DNA from: Teichococcus deserti
GTDB lineage: Bacteria > Pseudomonadota > Alphaproteobacteria > Acetobacterales > Acetobacteraceae
Direction of reading: 5' to 3'
NCBI RefSeq assembly: GCF_001982615.1
Contig: NZ_MLCO01000077.1
Coordinates: 1-64,000, forward strand
Length of the DNA: 64,000 nt
Program-made: the position numbers and the translations under genes
Shown here: one piece after another, positions 18,992-24,615 of the stretch
Layout: each line of letters starts with the position of its first letter
Numbering within the stretch: the stretch's first letter is position 1
The notes under the pieces: model-generated
Told to the model about the DNA's origin: nothing
What the model saw: the letters and a program-made list of their open reading frames with translations, nothing else
The model's database searches: none

Positions 18992-19115
18992 GCCCTTCCT
19001 CGCCGGGGCGGCACCGCGCTGCGGTTGTGCCCCGGCGTCTCATTCCTGGAACTTGATCGCAGGGGATGGGGACGGCATCCTGCCGGCCCATTCCTCAGGC
19101 GGCACTGTTTCCCCC

Positions 19116-19634
19116 ATGCGCTTCCCGGCCCGGGCCTTCTTCCTGATTTCGCTGCTGGCGTCCCCGGTGTTGCTCTCGGGCGGCGCCGCCGCGCAGATGT
19201 GGCCGAACGAGACCAGCCCGGGCGGCGACATGATGGCCGGCTCCGCCCGCCAGTTCGACCGCATCCGCCCCGTCATCCCGGCGCCGATGACGCAGGAGCT
19301 GCCGGTGGCGCCGACCGTCGCCGGCGTGCCCACCGCCGCCTGGACCCCGCCGCCGCTGCCGCAGGAGGCCGCGCCCGCCCGGCCCGGTCGCCGGGCTGCC
19401 GGCCGCGGCGCCACCCCGCGCCGCGCGGCGGTCGCCCGCCGCAGCGGCGAGGGCAGCCGCAACACCCGGCTGCGCAGCGACGAGGCCGCGCAGCGCCGCT
19501 TCACCGCGCGCGAGGCCGAGATCGAGCGGCTGCGCAGCCGGCTGGAGAGCGACCGCAACCGCTATGATTCGCAGCGCGCCAACACGGCGATCCGCTCGGC
19601 GCCGCAGCCCGCCTCGCCGGCGCTGACGCGGTAA
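19116..19634 (+). CDS. Predicted secreted protein, Arg/Pro/Ala-rich, unknown
   Basis: A 172-residue protein not matched to a known family. Residues 1-27 form a signal peptide (FFLISLLASPVLL core, cleavage likely after GGAAA). The middle is Pro/Ala-rich and disordered-looking (PPPLPQEAAPARPGRR), then very Arg-rich. Residues about 120-155 (RRFTAREAEIERLRSRLES) look like a short coiled coil. It is probably a periplasmic or envelope protein. It follows uppP at 124 bp and faces the convergent methyltransferase gene. Confidence 0.6.
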   Translation: MRFPARAFFLISLLASPVLLSGGAAAQMWPNETSPGGDMMAGSARQFDRIRPVIPAPMTQELPVAPTVAGVPTAAWTPPPLPQEAAPARPGRRAAGRGATPRRAAVARRSGEGSRNTRLRSDEAAQRRFTAREAEIERLRSRLESDRNRYDSQRANTAIRSAPQPASPALTR

Positions 19635-19656
19635 GGCGACGGGGCCAGGCGGCCGC

Positions 19657-20358
19657 TCACCGCTTCAGCGGCTTGCGCAGGATCCATTTCGGGTTCTCGA
19701 CCACCAGCTCCTGGCCGATTTCGGCGGCGAATTCCTGCGCCGCCTTGGCGACGCCGGGCCAGGGGAAGTCGTCGCCGACCAGCACGCCGCCCGGCGCCAG
19801 CAGCGCCCAGAAGCGGCGGGCGTCGCGCAGCACCGGCTCGTATTCATGCGCCGCGTCGATATGGATCAGCTCGGCCTTCACCCGCAGCCGCTGCAGGATG
19901 ACGGCGGCGTTCTCGCTGGTCTGGGCCAGCGGCACCACGCGGTCCTGCAGCCCCAGATGCGCCATGTTGCTGAGGAACTGCCAATACAGCCCCGGCATCC
20001 CATGCCGCAGCCGCAATGAAGCAAAAATGTTGTCCTGGCGCTCGCGGTTCCAGTGCTCGGGGCTGCCCAGGAAGGTGTCGACCGCGATCACCGCGCCGGG
20101 CAGGGCGTTCTTCTGCAGCGCCTTGCAGAAGAAGGCGACCGAGGCGCCCTTCCAGACGCCGACATCGATGATGGTTTTCGGCTTCACCTCCTGCACCAGG
20201 CGGGCCAGCGTCGGATGGGTGCTGTTCCAGCCCTGCAGGTCCTGCGGCAGCTCCGGCGTGAAGCCGGCATAGAGATCCTCGCCGAAGAGCCGCTGCATCA
20301 GCGCCTGCGCGGGCGTTTCCTGGGCAGGGGTCCCCGTGGCGGCGGCGGCGTCGGACAT
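19657..20358 (-). CDS. Class I SAM-dependent methyltransferase
   Basis: Protein of 233 residues with a Rossmann-type methyltransferase core: motif I is TIIDVGVWKGASVAFF, the acidic strand-2 end is VIAVDTFLGS, and strand 4 is ELIHIDAAHEYEPVL followed by LAPGGVLVGDDF. The overall pattern resembles the Methyltransf_24 / CmcI-like group; the substrate is unknown. ATG 20358 follows GGGAGC, which is the 3' arm of the intrinsic terminator of the upstream EI gene, so the ribosome site of this gene is inside a hairpin. Expression therefore depends on read-through or on a promoter within the terminator region. Confidence 0.85.
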   Translation of the reverse strand: MSDAAAATGTPAQETPAQALMQRLFGEDLYAGFTPELPQDLQGWNSTHPTLARLVQEVKPKTIIDVGVWKGASVAFFCKALQKNALPGAVIAVDTFLGSPEHWNRERQDNIFASLRLRHGMPGLYWQFLSNMAHLGLQDRVVPLAQTSENAAVILQRLRVKAELIHIDAAHEYEPVLRDARRFWALLAPGGVLVGDDFPWPGVAKAAQEFAAEIGQELVVENPKWILRKPLKR

Positions 20359-20359
20359 G

Positions 20360-20389
20360 AAAAAAGCTCCCGGTCTGCACCGGGAGCTT
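20360..20389 (-). terminator. Intrinsic terminator of the PTS operon, overlapping a ribosome site
   Basis: On the minus strand AAGCTCCCGG and CCGGGAGCTT form a 10-bp stem around TGCAGA, followed by a T-tract that ends at the C before ATG 20358. It lies 35 bp past the EI stop. The 3' arm supplies GGGAGC, the only plausible Shine-Dalgarno sequence of the methyltransferase. Confidence 0.88.
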
Positions 20390-20424
20390 GCCATCTCGAT
20401 CCGCGATCGCAAAGGCGGCGGAAG

Positions 20425-22344
20425 CTAGTCCCTGGCCGCGGCGGGCTCGCCGAAGGCCATGACCAGCTCCTGGATGCGCTTCGGGTCGCTCTGCTCCATG
20501 ACGCGGCGGGCGAAGCGGGCGCAGTCGTCGATCTGCAGCGTGCGCACCACCTGCTTCACCCGCGGGATGGCGCTGGCATTCATCGACAGCGTGCGGATGC
20601 CCAGGCCCAGCAGCAGCGGCACCAGCCGCGGATTGCCCGCCATCTCGCCGCAGACCGAGACCGGCATGCGCAGCCGCAGCGCCGCCTCCGTCGCGAACTG
20701 CACCAGCCGCAGCACGGCGGGGTGCAGCGGGTCGTAGAGATGGGCCACCTCCGCCTCGGCGCGGTCGACGGCCAGGGTGTACATGGCGAGGTCGTTGGTG
20801 CCGATGGCGAAGAAATCGGCCTCCAGCGCGATGGCGTCGGCGGCGAGCGCCGCGCCCGGCGTCTCGATCATGGCGCCCAGCGGCGGCAGCTTCTCCGGCA
20901 GCGGCACGCCCTTGCGGCGCAGCCGGCGGGCGACGCGCTCATAGATCTCGCGCGCCTGGGCGACCTCGGAGGGCACGGTGACCATCGGCAGCAGGATGCG
21001 CACCGGGCCCTGTGCGGCGATGCGCAGGATGGCGGCGAACTGCGCCTCCAGCAGCTCAGGGCGCTTCAGCAGCATGCGGATGCCGCGCAGGCCCAGCGCC
21101 GGGTTGGGGCCGGCGTGATAGGGCTCGATGCCTTCGGCCAGGGCCTCGATGTCCTTCTCGCCGCCCCAGTCGAGCACGCGGATGGTCACCTGGTCGCCGG
21201 CCAGAGGCCCGACGATCTGCGCATAGGCGTGGAACTGCGCATCCTCGTCCGGGAGATCCTCCCGGTTCATGAACAGGAACTCGGTGCGCAGCAGGCCGAT
21301 GCCCTGCGCGCCGGCCTGGGCGATCAGCGGCAGCTCGGCCGGGATCTCCAGATTGGCCTGGAGCTCGACCTCCTCGGCATCCAGCGTGACCGAGGGCAGG
21401 CGCCGGAGCTTGCCGAGCCGGGTCTTCTCCTTGGCATAGGCGGCCAGCGCCTCGCGCCCGGCCTCCATGGCGGCAGGGCCGGGGCGCAGCACGATGGTGC
21501 CGGCGCTGCCGTCCAGCACCGCCTCGTCGCCGCGGGCGGCAGCCTCGGTCAGGCCAGGGCAGCCCAGCACCGAGGGGATGCCCAGCGCGCGCAGCATGAT
21601 GGCGGTATGGCCATCGGCGCCGCCTTCCTCCGTCGCCACGCCGGCGATGCGGGCGGGGTCGAGCAGCGCGGCATCGGCCGGCGTCAGCTCCTCGGCCACC
21701 AGGATGGCGCCCTGCGGCACGCCCTTCAGGCTGCGGAAGGGGGTGGCGGTCAGGTTGCGGGTCAGGCGGCGGGCGATCTCGCGCACCTCGCCGGCGCGGC
21801 GCTTCAGGCCGGGCTTGTCGTCGTCCTTGGCGGCCAGGATGACGGCGGCGATGGCCTCGGCCTCGTCCTGCACGGCGGTCTCGGCGGCCAGCAGCTCCTC
21901 GCCGATGCGGCGGCGGGCGCCGCGCAGCAGCCGGCTGTCGCCCAGCATCATGGCATAGGCGTCGAGCAGCGGCGCCAGCTCTTCCTGCGCCTCCTCCGGC
22001 AGCACGCCGAGGCGCGCCTTCAGCTTGCCGACCTGCTTGCGGCTGGCGGCGGCCGCGGCGTTGAGGCGCGCGCGCTCATCCTCGACATGGCCGGCATCGA
22101 CCTGGCGGCGCGGCGCCAGCGTCGGCTCCTCCGAGGTGTCGTAGACGGCGCCGATGGCGACGCCATGGCTGACCGGGATGCCGCGGATCGAGACCTCGCG
22201 GGTCTTGGCCTTGCGGCGCGGCTCCTTCTCCGGACGCACCGCCTCGGCCGCCTTCTCGGCGGCGCGCAGCACCTCGGCCTTCAGCGCTTCCGCCTCGGCC
22301 CTGGCCTCCGCCTTCTCCTTCGCGCTGGCCTTCTCAGTCTTCAT
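20425..22344 (-). CDS. ptsP: Phosphoenolpyruvate-protein phosphotransferase (enzyme I)
   Basis: Cytoplasmic EI: takes phosphate from PEP and passes it to HPr. 639 residues. The N-terminus has a charged Ala/Glu/Lys helix (about 1-48) not in the core family, then the HPr-binding and phospho-His domains. The active His246 lies in GGADGHTAIMLRALGIPS, where the usual SH is GH. The PEP-binding barrel shows LLRTEFLFMNR, LDWGGEKD, FFAIGTNDLAMYTLAVDR and the catalytic-loop VSVCGEMAGNP. No GAF domain precedes the core, so it is EI-like rather than a GAF-containing nitrogen-PTS enzyme. Its ATG overlaps the HPr gene by 11 bp. Last gene of the hprK operon; a strong terminator follows. Confidence 0.95.
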   Translation of the reverse strand: MKTEKASAKEKAEARAEAEALKAEVLRAAEKAAEAVRPEKEPRRKAKTREVSIRGIPVSHGVAIGAVYDTSEEPTLAPRRQVDAGHVEDERARLNAAAAASRKQVGKLKARLGVLPEEAQEELAPLLDAYAMMLGDSRLLRGARRRIGEELLAAETAVQDEAEAIAAVILAAKDDDKPGLKRRAGEVREIARRLTRNLTATPFRSLKGVPQGAILVAEELTPADAALLDPARIAGVATEEGGADGHTAIMLRALGIPSVLGCPGLTEAAARGDEAVLDGSAGTIVLRPGPAAMEAGREALAAYAKEKTRLGKLRRLPSVTLDAEEVELQANLEIPAELPLIAQAGAQGIGLLRTEFLFMNREDLPDEDAQFHAYAQIVGPLAGDQVTIRVLDWGGEKDIEALAEGIEPYHAGPNPALGLRGIRMLLKRPELLEAQFAAILRIAAQGPVRILLPMVTVPSEVAQAREIYERVARRLRRKGVPLPEKLPPLGAMIETPGAALAADAIALEADFFAIGTNDLAMYTLAVDRAEAEVAHLYDPLHPAVLRLVQFATEAALRLRMPVSVCGEMAGNPRLVPLLLGLGIRTLSMNASAIPRVKQVVRTLQIDDCARFARRVMEQSDPKRIQELVMAFGEPAAARD

Positions 22345-22711
22345 GGAAACCGGCCTCGATCAGGCCGGCCACCGCATCCAGCGCCTCTCTGGCGTCCCAC
22401 CCTTCGGCCTCCACCAGCACCTCGCTGCCCTTGCCGGCGCCCAGCATCATCAGCCCCATGATGGAGCAGGCGGGCACCTTCTGGCCATCGCGGGACACGG
22501 TGACGCAGGCGGAAAACCGCTCGGCCAGCGAGACCAGCTTGGCCGCCGCCCGGGCATGCAGGCCGCGGCTGTTGATGATGCGGATGCTGCTGCGCAGCAC
22601 CAGCGGGTTGGCGGCTTCCGGTGCAGGCTCCGCGGCCGCGCCATAGGTGTCGGACGGCGCGGCGGGCGCGGGGCCGCGCCAGAAAAGCAGGCCGGTCTGG
22701 TCAAGGCGCAT
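22334..22711 (-). CDS. ptsH: HPr family phosphocarrier protein, N-terminally extended
   Basis: HPr accepts phosphate from EI on a His and passes it to EIIA; HprK modifies a Ser. 125 residues, against about 88 for typical HPr. The first about 38 residues (FWRGPAPAAPSDTYGAAAEP) are an extra Pro/Ala-rich arm. His52 lies in NSRGLHARAAAKLV and Ser83 in CSIMGLMMLGAGKG, matching the two phosphorylation sites. Its end overlaps the EI start, so the pair is translationally coupled. It is 217 bp downstream of the EIIA gene; that gap has a weak hairpin (CGGGAC/GTCCCG near 22894) and might hold a second promoter. Confidence 0.94.
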   Translation of the reverse strand: MRLDQTGLLFWRGPAPAAPSDTYGAAAEPAPEAANPLVLRSSIRIINSRGLHARAAAKLVSLAERFSACVTVSRDGQKVPACSIMGLMMLGAGKGSEVLVEAEGWDAREALDAVAGLIEAGFHED

Positions 22712-22928
22712 CGTCTCGCCCCTCTGCTGCGGCCGCCACGGCGCGAGCGCGCGACGGCCTGGTCTGGTCCCCGGATCCCGGTACCGCTGCGAGAATCGAC
22801 GGGCAAAGCGCCGGGATTATGGCAGGCGCGCCGCGGGGATGCGCCCCAGGGACTGCGCCTGCGCCGTATTTTTTCCATATCTGGCCGGCGGGACCGGTTT
22901 TCCAGTCCCGCAAGGTCGAAGGCCGGGC

Positions 22929-23384
22929 TCAGCCGGTTTTCTGCACGCATTGCAGCACCACCTCGGAGGGCGGCGCGCAACGGGTGGGGGTCGCGCAGGC
23001 GATGTAGTGGCGGCCGGCGCGCATGGCGTGCTCGACCGCGGGCGACAGCGGCTCGGCGTTGCGGATGCGGGCCAGCTTGACCAGCATCGGCAGGTTGACG
23101 CCGGCGATCACCTCGATGGCGCCGCCGGCCGCCGCGCTGTCCTGCGCCACCGCCGTGGCCAGGTTGGACGGCGTGCCGCCGAACATGTCGGTCAGCAGCA
23201 CCACGCCGTCGCCGCTGTCCACCGCGGCCACCTGGGCCAGGATGTCGCGCTTGCGGCCGTCCATGTCGTCCTCGGGGCCGATGCAGACCGTCGCGACCTG
23301 GGCCTGCGGCCCCACGACATGTTCCATCGCCAGGCGGAACTCCTCGGCCAGGCGGCCGTGGCTGACCAGCACAAGACCGATCAT
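22929..23384 (-). CDS. PTS EIIA component, mannose-type
   Basis: Small cytoplasmic EIIA of the mannose/sorbose family, 151 residues. The N-terminal MIGLVLVSHGRLAEEF places the phospho-acceptor at His9. VVLLTDMFGGTPSNLA is the family signature, and VIAGVNLPMLVKLAR follows. There are no EIIB, EIIC or EIID genes in the window, so this is a regulatory rather than transport component, as known for alphaproteobacterial ManX homologues. The start codon chosen has a weak ribosome site; GTG or ATG further upstream are possible but lack family similarity. It begins 13 bp after the rapZ stop. Confidence 0.9.
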   Translation of the reverse strand: MIGLVLVSHGRLAEEFRLAMEHVVGPQAQVATVCIGPEDDMDGRKRDILAQVAAVDSGDGVVLLTDMFGGTPSNLATAVAQDSAAAGGAIEVIAGVNLPMLVKLARIRNAEPLSPAVEHAMRAGRHYIACATPTRCAPPSEVVLQCVQKTG

Positions 23385-23397
23385 CAGGAATACGCCA

Positions 23398-24615
23398 TCA
23401 CAGTGTGCAAGAAGGGTCCTCCCGACCCGGATGAGGGAGCGGCGCCGCGGCGCCGGCACGGGCTTCCGGCCCGCGGTATCCAGCATGGGCGTCCTGCCCG
23501 CGCTGCTCAGCCTGGGCGTCCTGCCCGATCGTCACGTCCGTCGTCCCGGCGGCGCCGCCAGGAGGCCTGGTGGCACCGCTGTCCGCCGCCGCCGGAACGG
23601 GGTCCGCAGCCGGCGGTCCGGTGAGGACCCGCTCGGCGGCGGCCAGCTCGCGGTGGCGGAGGTCGACCCGCCATCCCTGCCCGGCCAGGTGCTCGGCCAG
23701 CATCTCGGCCAGCAGCACGGAGCGGTGCTTCCCGCCCGTGCAGCCCAGGGCGACGGTCAGGTATTTCTTGCCCTCTGCCGCATAGCGGGGCAACAGCGGG
23801 TCCAGCAGCGCCGTCATGCGCTGCCAGAATGGACCGAACTCCGCATCCGCCTTGATGAAGCCGGCGACCGCCGGATCCCGTCCGGTCTGCGGCCGCAGCG
23901 CCGGATCATAATGCGGATTGCGCAGGAAGCGCAGATCGAAGACGAGATCGGCCTCGCGCGGCAGGCCGCGCGGGAAGGCGAAGGACAGCACCGCGACCGC
24001 CATCCCCTCGGGCCCCTCCGCCACCCGGAAGCGGCGCTCGATCTGGCGGCGCAGCTCCGGCAGGGGCAGCTCGGTGGTGTCGACCAGGGCATCGGCGGCA
24101 TCGCGCAGCGGCGCCAGCAGCGCCTCCTCGCGGGCGATGCCGTCGGCGACCGAGCCGCCCAGCGAGCCGCCCGGGGCCAGCGGATGACGCCGCCGGGTCT
24201 CCGAGAAGCGGCGCATCAGCACGGCGGGTTCGGCGGTGACATAGATGAGCTCGGGGGCCAGCCCCGGCAAGGTGCGCAGCCGCGCGATTCGCTGCAGCAG
24301 CGCCAGCGCGTCGAAGCCGCGGGTGCGGGCGTCGAGGCCGACCGCCAGCGGCACATGGCCGCCGTCGCGCACCAGCTCCTCCAGCACCGCCAGCGGCGGG
24401 TTGTCGATGCTCTCGAAGCCGAGGTCCTCGAGCATGCGCAGGATCGAGGCCTTGCCGGCGCCGGACAGGCCGGTGACCACGACGAACGGCCGCGCGCCGT
24501 CCGGCGCGACGAAAGGCCGCGCGCCGCCTGGCGCGACGAACGGCCGCGCGCCGTCTGGCGCGACGAAGGGGCGCGTGCCCTCGCGGGCCGGCGGCGACTC
24601 GGGAAGGAGGGTCAC
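23398..24615 (-). CDS. rapZ: RapZ/YvcJ-type nucleotide-binding adapter with N-terminal repeats
   Basis: P-loop protein family including RapZ (RNase E adapter controlling amino-sugar synthesis) and YvcJ (GTPase). 405 residues from GTG 24615, which has GAGGG upstream. Residues 14-49 are four 9-residue repeats of the type ARPFVAPDG, the last running into the P-loop TGLSGAGKAS (residues 48-57). The residue after Lys is Ala rather than Ser/Thr. The conserved C-terminal half has RFLRNPHYDPALRPQTGRD, KKYLTVALGCTGGKHRSV and the late DLRHRELA. A disordered tail of about 70 residues follows and is unusual. It starts 13 bp after hprK. Its mRNA target in this lineage is unknown. Confidence 0.92.
   Translation of the reverse strand: MTLLPESPPAREGTRPFVAPDGARPFVAPGGARPFVAPDGARPFVVVTGLSGAGKASILRMLEDLGFESIDNPPLAVLEELVRDGGHVPLAVGLDARTRGFDALALLQRIARLRTLPGLAPELIYVTAEPAVLMRRFSETRRRHPLAPGGSLGGSVADGIAREEALLAPLRDAADALVDTTELPLPELRRQIERRFRVAEGPEGMAVAVLSFAFPRGLPREADLVFDLRFLRNPHYDPALRPQTGRDPAVAGFIKADAEFGPFWQRMTALLDPLLPRYAAEGKKYLTVALGCTGGKHRSVLLAEMLAEHLAGQGWRVDLRHRELAAAERVLTGPPAADPVPAAADSGATRPPGGAAGTTDVTIGQDAQAEQRGQDAHAGYRGPEARAGAAAPLPHPGREDPSCTL
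24469..24576 (-). repeat. Tandem 27-bp repeat in the 5' end of rapZ
   Basis: Four 27-bp units encode TRPFVAPDG, ARPFVAPGG, ARPFVAPDG and ARPFVVVTG. The last merges into the P-loop strand, so the first three look like duplications of the RPFV strand start. The array stays in frame and may vary in copy number between strains. Confidence 0.85.

Follow-up and report, generated by a model that had tools for sequence, protein, structure and literature searches.

A terminator-like hairpin between EI and a methyltransferase gene of Teichococcus deserti that contains the Shine-Dalgarno candidate of the downstream gene

In this study, we analysed a 64,000-nt stretch of the Teichococcus deserti genome (contig NZ_MLCO01000077.1, hereafter the window), in which the genes for EIIA, HPr, and EI lie consecutively on the minus strand, presumably as one transcript, and are followed by a gene for a class I SAM-dependent methyltransferase (Table 1). 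The gap between EI and the methyltransferase gene is 66 bp and holds a hairpin with a T-tract: on the minus strand, positions 20389-20359 read AAGCTCCCGG-TGCAGA-CCGGGAGCTTTTTT-C, directly followed by an ATG at 20358-20356. Beyond its other end the methyltransferase gene converges with a plus-strand frame (19053-19634), the two ends being 22 nt apart (19634-19657), and the scan for terminator-like sites found none between them.

Table 1. Genes and features around the EI-methyltransferase gap (coordinates of the window)
Feature	Position	Strand	Remarks
ptsI-like EI (PEP-protein phosphotransferase)	20425..22344	minus	TIGR01417, E 1.1e-135, above cut-off; Pfam; stop TAG 20427-20425
Spacer between EI stop and hairpin, 35 nt	20390..20424	minus	sequence
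In-frame ATG just upstream of hairpin, possible alternative start	20392..20394	minus	out of frame in sister species
Intrinsic-terminator-like hairpin, 10-11 bp, and six-T tract	20360..20389	minus	sequence, fold, scans
5' arm of hairpin	20389-20380	minus	AAGCTCCCGG
Hairpin loop	20379-20374	minus	TGCAGA
3' arm of hairpin	20373-20366	minus	CCGGGAGC
GGAG, Shine-Dalgarno candidate in 3' arm	20367..20370	minus	8 nt before ATG 20358
T-tract, six T	20365-20360	minus	first two T able to pair with AA
Single C between T-tract and ATG	20359	minus	
Class I SAM-dependent methyltransferase (Methyltransf_24), 233 aa	19657..20358	minus	PF13578, E 2.2e-19; relatives with similar N-terminal length
In-frame internal ATG, possible alternative start	20296..20298	minus	weak SD; sequence, duplex energy

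Folding with ViennaRNA closed an 11th pair (U-A) and left GCAG as the loop. The 40-nt hairpin module folded at -23.0 kcal/mol against a mean of -9.33 for shuffled sequences (z -5.72), none of 200 shuffles being as good; with more flanking sequence the z-scores were weaker (-2.01 for 66 nt and -2.51 for 96 nt). The hairpin therefore combines a GC-rich stem longer than the approximately 7 bp required of an intrinsic terminator, a T-tract directly after it, and, in the 40-nt module, a stability beyond chance. The 22-nt core alone reached -18.3 kcal/mol, which falls between the mean hairpin energies given in PMC2965389 for 5' attenuators (-16.5) and for 3' terminators (-20.2). The d'Aubenton-Carafa formula, applied for orientation only, gave a terminator strength of 44.9 for the window and 29.6 for the sister species. 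The initial annotation had described a 10-bp stem with a T-tract running to one base before ATG 20358, and the sequence, the coordinates, and the fold all agree with that description. A permissive terminator scan of 19400-24000 returned the hairpin as its sole site, which by itself proves nothing because 0.8 sites were expected by chance.

How unusual it is for a terminator to lie next to a start codon was judged from a strict scan of the window, 0.70 Mb of the 6.25-Mb genome, and 0.40 Mb of a relative (G203), which yielded 61 terminator-like sites: 22 same-to-same, 4 opposite-to-same, 16 same-to-opposite, 3 opposite-to-opposite, 8 inside called genes, and 8 at edges. Only the hairpin at 20360-20389 had its end between -12 and +15 nt relative to the called start of a gene on the same strand. 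Among the 26 sites preceding a same-direction gene it was likewise the single one ending no more than 3 nt before the start, where 0.88 would be expected with uniform placement in each gap, and it was the closest to a start, the next lying at 16 nt; we counted this last point against a plain-terminator reading. The hairpin is thus the extreme of its set, yet its abutment on the start is not beyond chance. It would also pass the distance-ratio filter for candidate attenuators described in PMC2965389, which again counts against a plain terminator. On the side of EI, 13 of the 22 same-to-same sites begin 19-61 nt past the stop codon and the hairpin begins 35 nt past it (36 nt in the scan, because its stem was taken one base shorter there); this distance is usual and speaks for a 3' terminator of EI. 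At the E. coli terminator tR2, as reported in PMC4824070, termination is repressed by a ribosome on a nearby stop codon and becomes maximal once the distance exceeds about 27-30 nt. The 35-nt spacer exceeds that range, so EI ribosomes at the TAG should leave the hairpin undisturbed, as far as another terminator in another organism can be a guide, and we judged a coupling of the hairpin to EI translation unlikely.

The 3' arm carries the only Shine-Dalgarno (SD) candidate of the methyltransferase gene. Among the four 4-mers tested (AGGA, GGAG, GAGG, and AAGG), GGAG was the sole one at -18 to -5 of ATG 20358, so the placement of the only SD candidate inside the stem in the initial annotation was correct. 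Its predicted duplex with the anti-SD, for which we assumed the sequence, has an energy of -7.1 kcal/mol against a median of -5.8 for 589 called genes, 31% of which were equal or stronger. These genes were called with a crude codon-usage script and their start positions are approximate. Opening positions -18 to +3 at 20358 would cost 18.7 kcal/mol (median 10.3), a cost reached by 29 of the 589 genes with the methyltransferase included (the top 5%), and the fold of -35 to +3 was as strong in 10 of the 589, again including the methyltransferase. Structured starts are common in this GC-rich genome, so the value is high without being singular. By computation, then, the SD candidate is paired in a stable fold and the start is costly to open, which supports the earlier expectation that read-through RNA would have a blocked start.

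Comparison with the sister species G211 revealed that the hairpin and GGAG are kept at a fourfold divergence of about 15% (58 of 395 sites in EI and 18 of 123 in the methyltransferase). The 66-nt gap differs by two substitutions and one indel, and 51 nt from 20417 down are identical. The indel drops the C of GGGAGC in G211 (an equally good alignment has T in place of the C and lacks one T); a G-U closure is possible there and the six T are kept. The 51-nt run extends past the hairpin on its upstream side by some 28 nt, which would be superfluous for a plain terminator and which we counted against that reading. The run is suggestive, not proof, of a constraint on the hairpin and the upstream leader, as it was picked out post hoc in a single species pair; moreover, fourfold differences at the end of EI (3/25, 5/63, and 9/93 in the last 150, 300, and 450 nt) were somewhat below those of the whole gene, and the same 5120-column alignment contains 17 identical runs longer than 51 nt, mostly coding. 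From 20298 on, 8 of 213 methyltransferase residues are changed, and the first, second, and third codon positions carry 8, 3, and 31 changes. Purifying selection acts on the gene between the two species; it is therefore maintained, presumably expressed, and hardly silent behind EI, contrary to one option of the initial annotation. The single-base indel shifts every frame upstream of the hairpin, so that the two species have no ATG in a common frame before ATG 20358; a GTG 21 nt upstream is in frame in G211 and out of frame in the window.

In the genus set of 17 genomes, including T. deserti itself (G000), EI of this kind was found in 16, G202 having only a distant match. Strong matches to the methyltransferase (E <1e-100) occurred in 7 of the 17 genomes, and another 3 had weak ones (E 1e-5 to 1e-6); the gene directly follows EI in 5 of 16 (G000, G211, G203, G208, and G200). 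The hairpin is present in just two of these five, the sisters G000 and G211, so it is not kept before the gene in relatives as an attenuator might be. In G200 the gap between EI and the methyltransferase gene is 15 nt, with GGGA before the ATG and without a hairpin, so isolation of the methyltransferase from EI is not general. In G203 and G208 the gap holds a repeat element. A wider family search matched 75 of 200 genomes, and upstream regions were inspected at 19 loci plus the genus loci; in other Roseomonas the methyltransferase stands in different contexts, several with an apparent TTG start (judged by eye) overlapping the upstream stop. With such varied neighbours, and with the hairpin in two sisters, the gene order cannot be regarded as a fixed unit, nor can the hairpin. 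A plasmid search returned 8 records, all below 60% identity, which were not used.

Taking these data together, we hold it about 64% probable that the hairpin is an ordinary 3' intrinsic terminator of the EI-ending transcript that would also lock the translation of read-through RNA. Because the gap is so short, the leader of the methyltransferase gene is made up of the 3' arm and the T-tract. Polymerase would mostly halt at the T-tract just upstream of the AUG, and in any RNA that reads through, the same hairpin is computed to keep GGAG paired, which would dampen initiation; this would insulate the methyltransferase from the PTS operon and keep its expression low, with read-through or a promoter near its start as the source. 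The points that we counted for this reading are the fold relative to shuffles, the 35-nt distance from the stop, the placement near expectation, the hairpin in G211, the structured start, and the purifying selection on the methyltransferase.

It is conceivable, if unlikely, that the methyltransferase gene is transcribed from a separate promoter, at the hairpin region or within it, as a message with no leader or a very short one, so that the functional transcript never forms the hairpin. The AUG one base past the T-tract would suit such a start, and SD-independent starts are plausible here because an SD 4-mer is missing from roughly half of the called genes (it occurs at -18 to -5 in 272 of 567, against 85, 77, and 74 of 567 in shifted controls, with crude start calls). 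Yet no sigma-70 consensus site was found in 19400-24000 by a scan with an E. coli-type consensus only, AGGA precedes the start in G203 and G208 (by eye), and GGAG stands in good register and is kept in G211. Two further start codons, absent from the initial annotation, bear on the question. Were the internal ATG at 20298 the true start, the hairpin would merely be an upstream terminator and GGAG no SD. That codon is in frame, 60 nt downstream, and cheaper to open (13.3 against 18.7 kcal/mol), and the first 60 nt of the methyltransferase gene are variable between the sisters (65%, with a 15-nt gap). However, the 15-nt gap stays in frame, the anti-SD duplex at 20298 reaches just -2.6 kcal/mol, and the genes in G203, G208, and G200 and at two other loci (L036 and L037) start, by eye, 11-18 residues before the equivalent of 20298, which 20358 fits better; we regard this reading as very improbable. 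AUG 20394, two bases before the hairpin, could in turn act as a landing site, a 30S subunit on it covering the 5' arm, opening both the terminator and the SD, and so turning the methyltransferase on. In the window this AUG is in frame and would add 12 residues, and in G211 it opens a 26-codon frame ending in TGATG on the internal methyltransferase AUG, an arrangement that would permit coupling. Its anti-SD duplex is weak (-3.3 kcal/mol), and we would give such a switch hardly any credence.

The hairpin could also be a regulated attenuator, in which a signal favours another fold so that polymerase passes and the SD is freed, as in the rplJL and vmlR leaders; we consider this quite improbable. 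The hairpin directly before the start with the SD in its 3' arm is the layout that such control would use, the 51 identical nt at about 15% fourfold divergence would accord with it, and a possible competitor appears once the 3' arm is left off: the leader then has a fold of -13.4 kcal/mol in which AGCUU, at the EI stop, pairs with the outer half of the 5' arm (AAGCU). This competing leader fold exists on paper and is short. When the 3' arm is included in the fold, the terminator hairpin prevails, and in a longer upstream stretch GGAGC of the EI coding region pairs with GCUCC of the 5' arm instead, over only 5 bp. No Rfam family came near its gathering score in 19600-20900, that is, no known sensor domain was found there; the hairpin is missing in the other three genomes with the same gene order; and the identity across the gap loses force beside the lower divergence at the end of EI and the longer, mostly coding, identical runs. 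The hairpin probably has no sensor.

Several published systems resemble a terminator that also holds the SD of the next gene. According to PMC4538822, the SD in the Bacillus subtilis rplJL leader lies inside the 3' portion of a terminator hairpin and is free when an antiterminator forms and polymerase reads through. The locus studied here shares with it an intrinsic terminator whose 3' portion contains the SD of the next open frame, but the rplJL leader, as described there, has a leader peptide, an antiterminator, an anti-antiterminator, and control by L10(L12)4, whereas here a whole enzyme gene lies downstream and no convincing alternative fold was found among those computed. In the rimP-leader attenuators described in PMC2965389, the terminator lies 4-130 nt from the gene start and may encompass the ribosome-binding site, and no antiterminator is reported as visible outside several Gammaproteobacteria. 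The hairpin is like them in lying near a gene start and overlapping the ribosome-binding site; unlike the rimP-leader, whose conserved GGGc(...)gCCC stem precedes rimP-nusA-infB in many bacteria, it has a C-rich 5' arm, precedes a different gene at a distance of 1 nt, and is confined to two sister species. The B. subtilis vmlR leader (PMC9226507) is presented as combining termination and SD sequestration as two layers on one gene, with separate hairpins (SL-3 and SL-4) and a uORF, whereas here a single hairpin would serve both. With ordinary 3' intrinsic terminators the hairpin shares the GC-rich stem, the T-tract, and the position 35 nt past a stop, the sole difference being the start codon 1 nt beyond the T-tract. 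Since the rplJL, rimP-leader, and vmlR cases have been published, the anatomy is not new and this is one more instance of it; a phrase search of the literature matched no paper, to which we attach little weight. The locus illustrates that compact spacing can let one hairpin end one message and mute the next gene. It also counsels caution, as a terminator overlapping a start need not be a riboregulator: of the five genomes of the genus that share the gene order, only two, which are sisters, have the overlap.

The hairpin was also considered as a member of a known or repeated family. The pattern of its 20-nt core, with up to 3 mismatches, occurs at 10 places in the genome, one perfect and nine with 3 mismatches (3 for a reversed-pattern control), and with a single perfect copy the idea of a repeat family was rejected. 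So was an Rfam element, the three matches in 19600-20900 scoring 12.7-16.4 bits against gathering scores of 61-100. The gap of G200 (L064) has GCAGAGACACCGGGA before the ATG, which resembles GCAGACCGGGA of the hairpin; 47 of 5000 shuffles were as good in this post hoc comparison. In the alignment, the G200 gap of 15 nt is matched to GCAG....ACCGGGA of the hairpin, a weak hint that the 3' arm may possibly derive from an older SD.

A search for GGAG-T5-ATG in 16 genus genomes, T. deserti included, gave 35 matches against 11 for reversed-pattern controls. Thirty loci were retrieved and 26 have fold results; those without are L188, L200, L207, and L210, the last being the G211 copy of the hairpin site, which was folded separately. 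All four GGAG bases were paired as the 3' side of a stem in 4 of the 26 (L184, L192, L201, and L205). At L201, in G211, a GGAGGTTTTTTTCATG hairpin has GGAG in its 3' arm and is followed by a T-run and then the ATG of a 303-aa frame. L205 (G206) and L192 (G208), with GGAGCCTTTTTCATG and GGAGTTTTTTTTGATG, show the same layout before frames of 133 and 255 aa, which look doubtful. Among the four loci only the L201 frame looks like a usual gene.

The genus genomes differ in what else stands behind EI. In the 330 nt behind EI (L053-L068), examined by eye, the frame in G016, G209, and G206 is what we take to be ahcY, and a different frame follows EI in G201, G207, G212, G205, and G204; that of G201 has 227 aa, with 109 residues without a Pfam match, and ahcY comes after it. 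In G162, G210, and G107 the slot holds, by eye, sequence without an identified frame. The element in the gaps of G203 and G208 (L055 and L058) is a composite repeat of about 130 nt, further copies of which were seen at L122-L141 and for which the literature matches listed included no paper. Its ends are AT-rich hairpins (CTTCTTTTTCTGAAGAAAAAGAAG and GTTCTTTTTTnnAAAAAAGAAC), its inner arms are GC-rich, for example TTTGGCGTCCCGC..GCGGGACGCCAAA, and 400 kb of G203 contain 12 copies. The end palindrome was counted 414 times in G208, 79 times in G203, 72 times in G202, and 9 times in G204; the remaining 12 genomes of the 16 had 0-2 each, and a reversed-pattern control had none. This is a strongly species-specific expansion.
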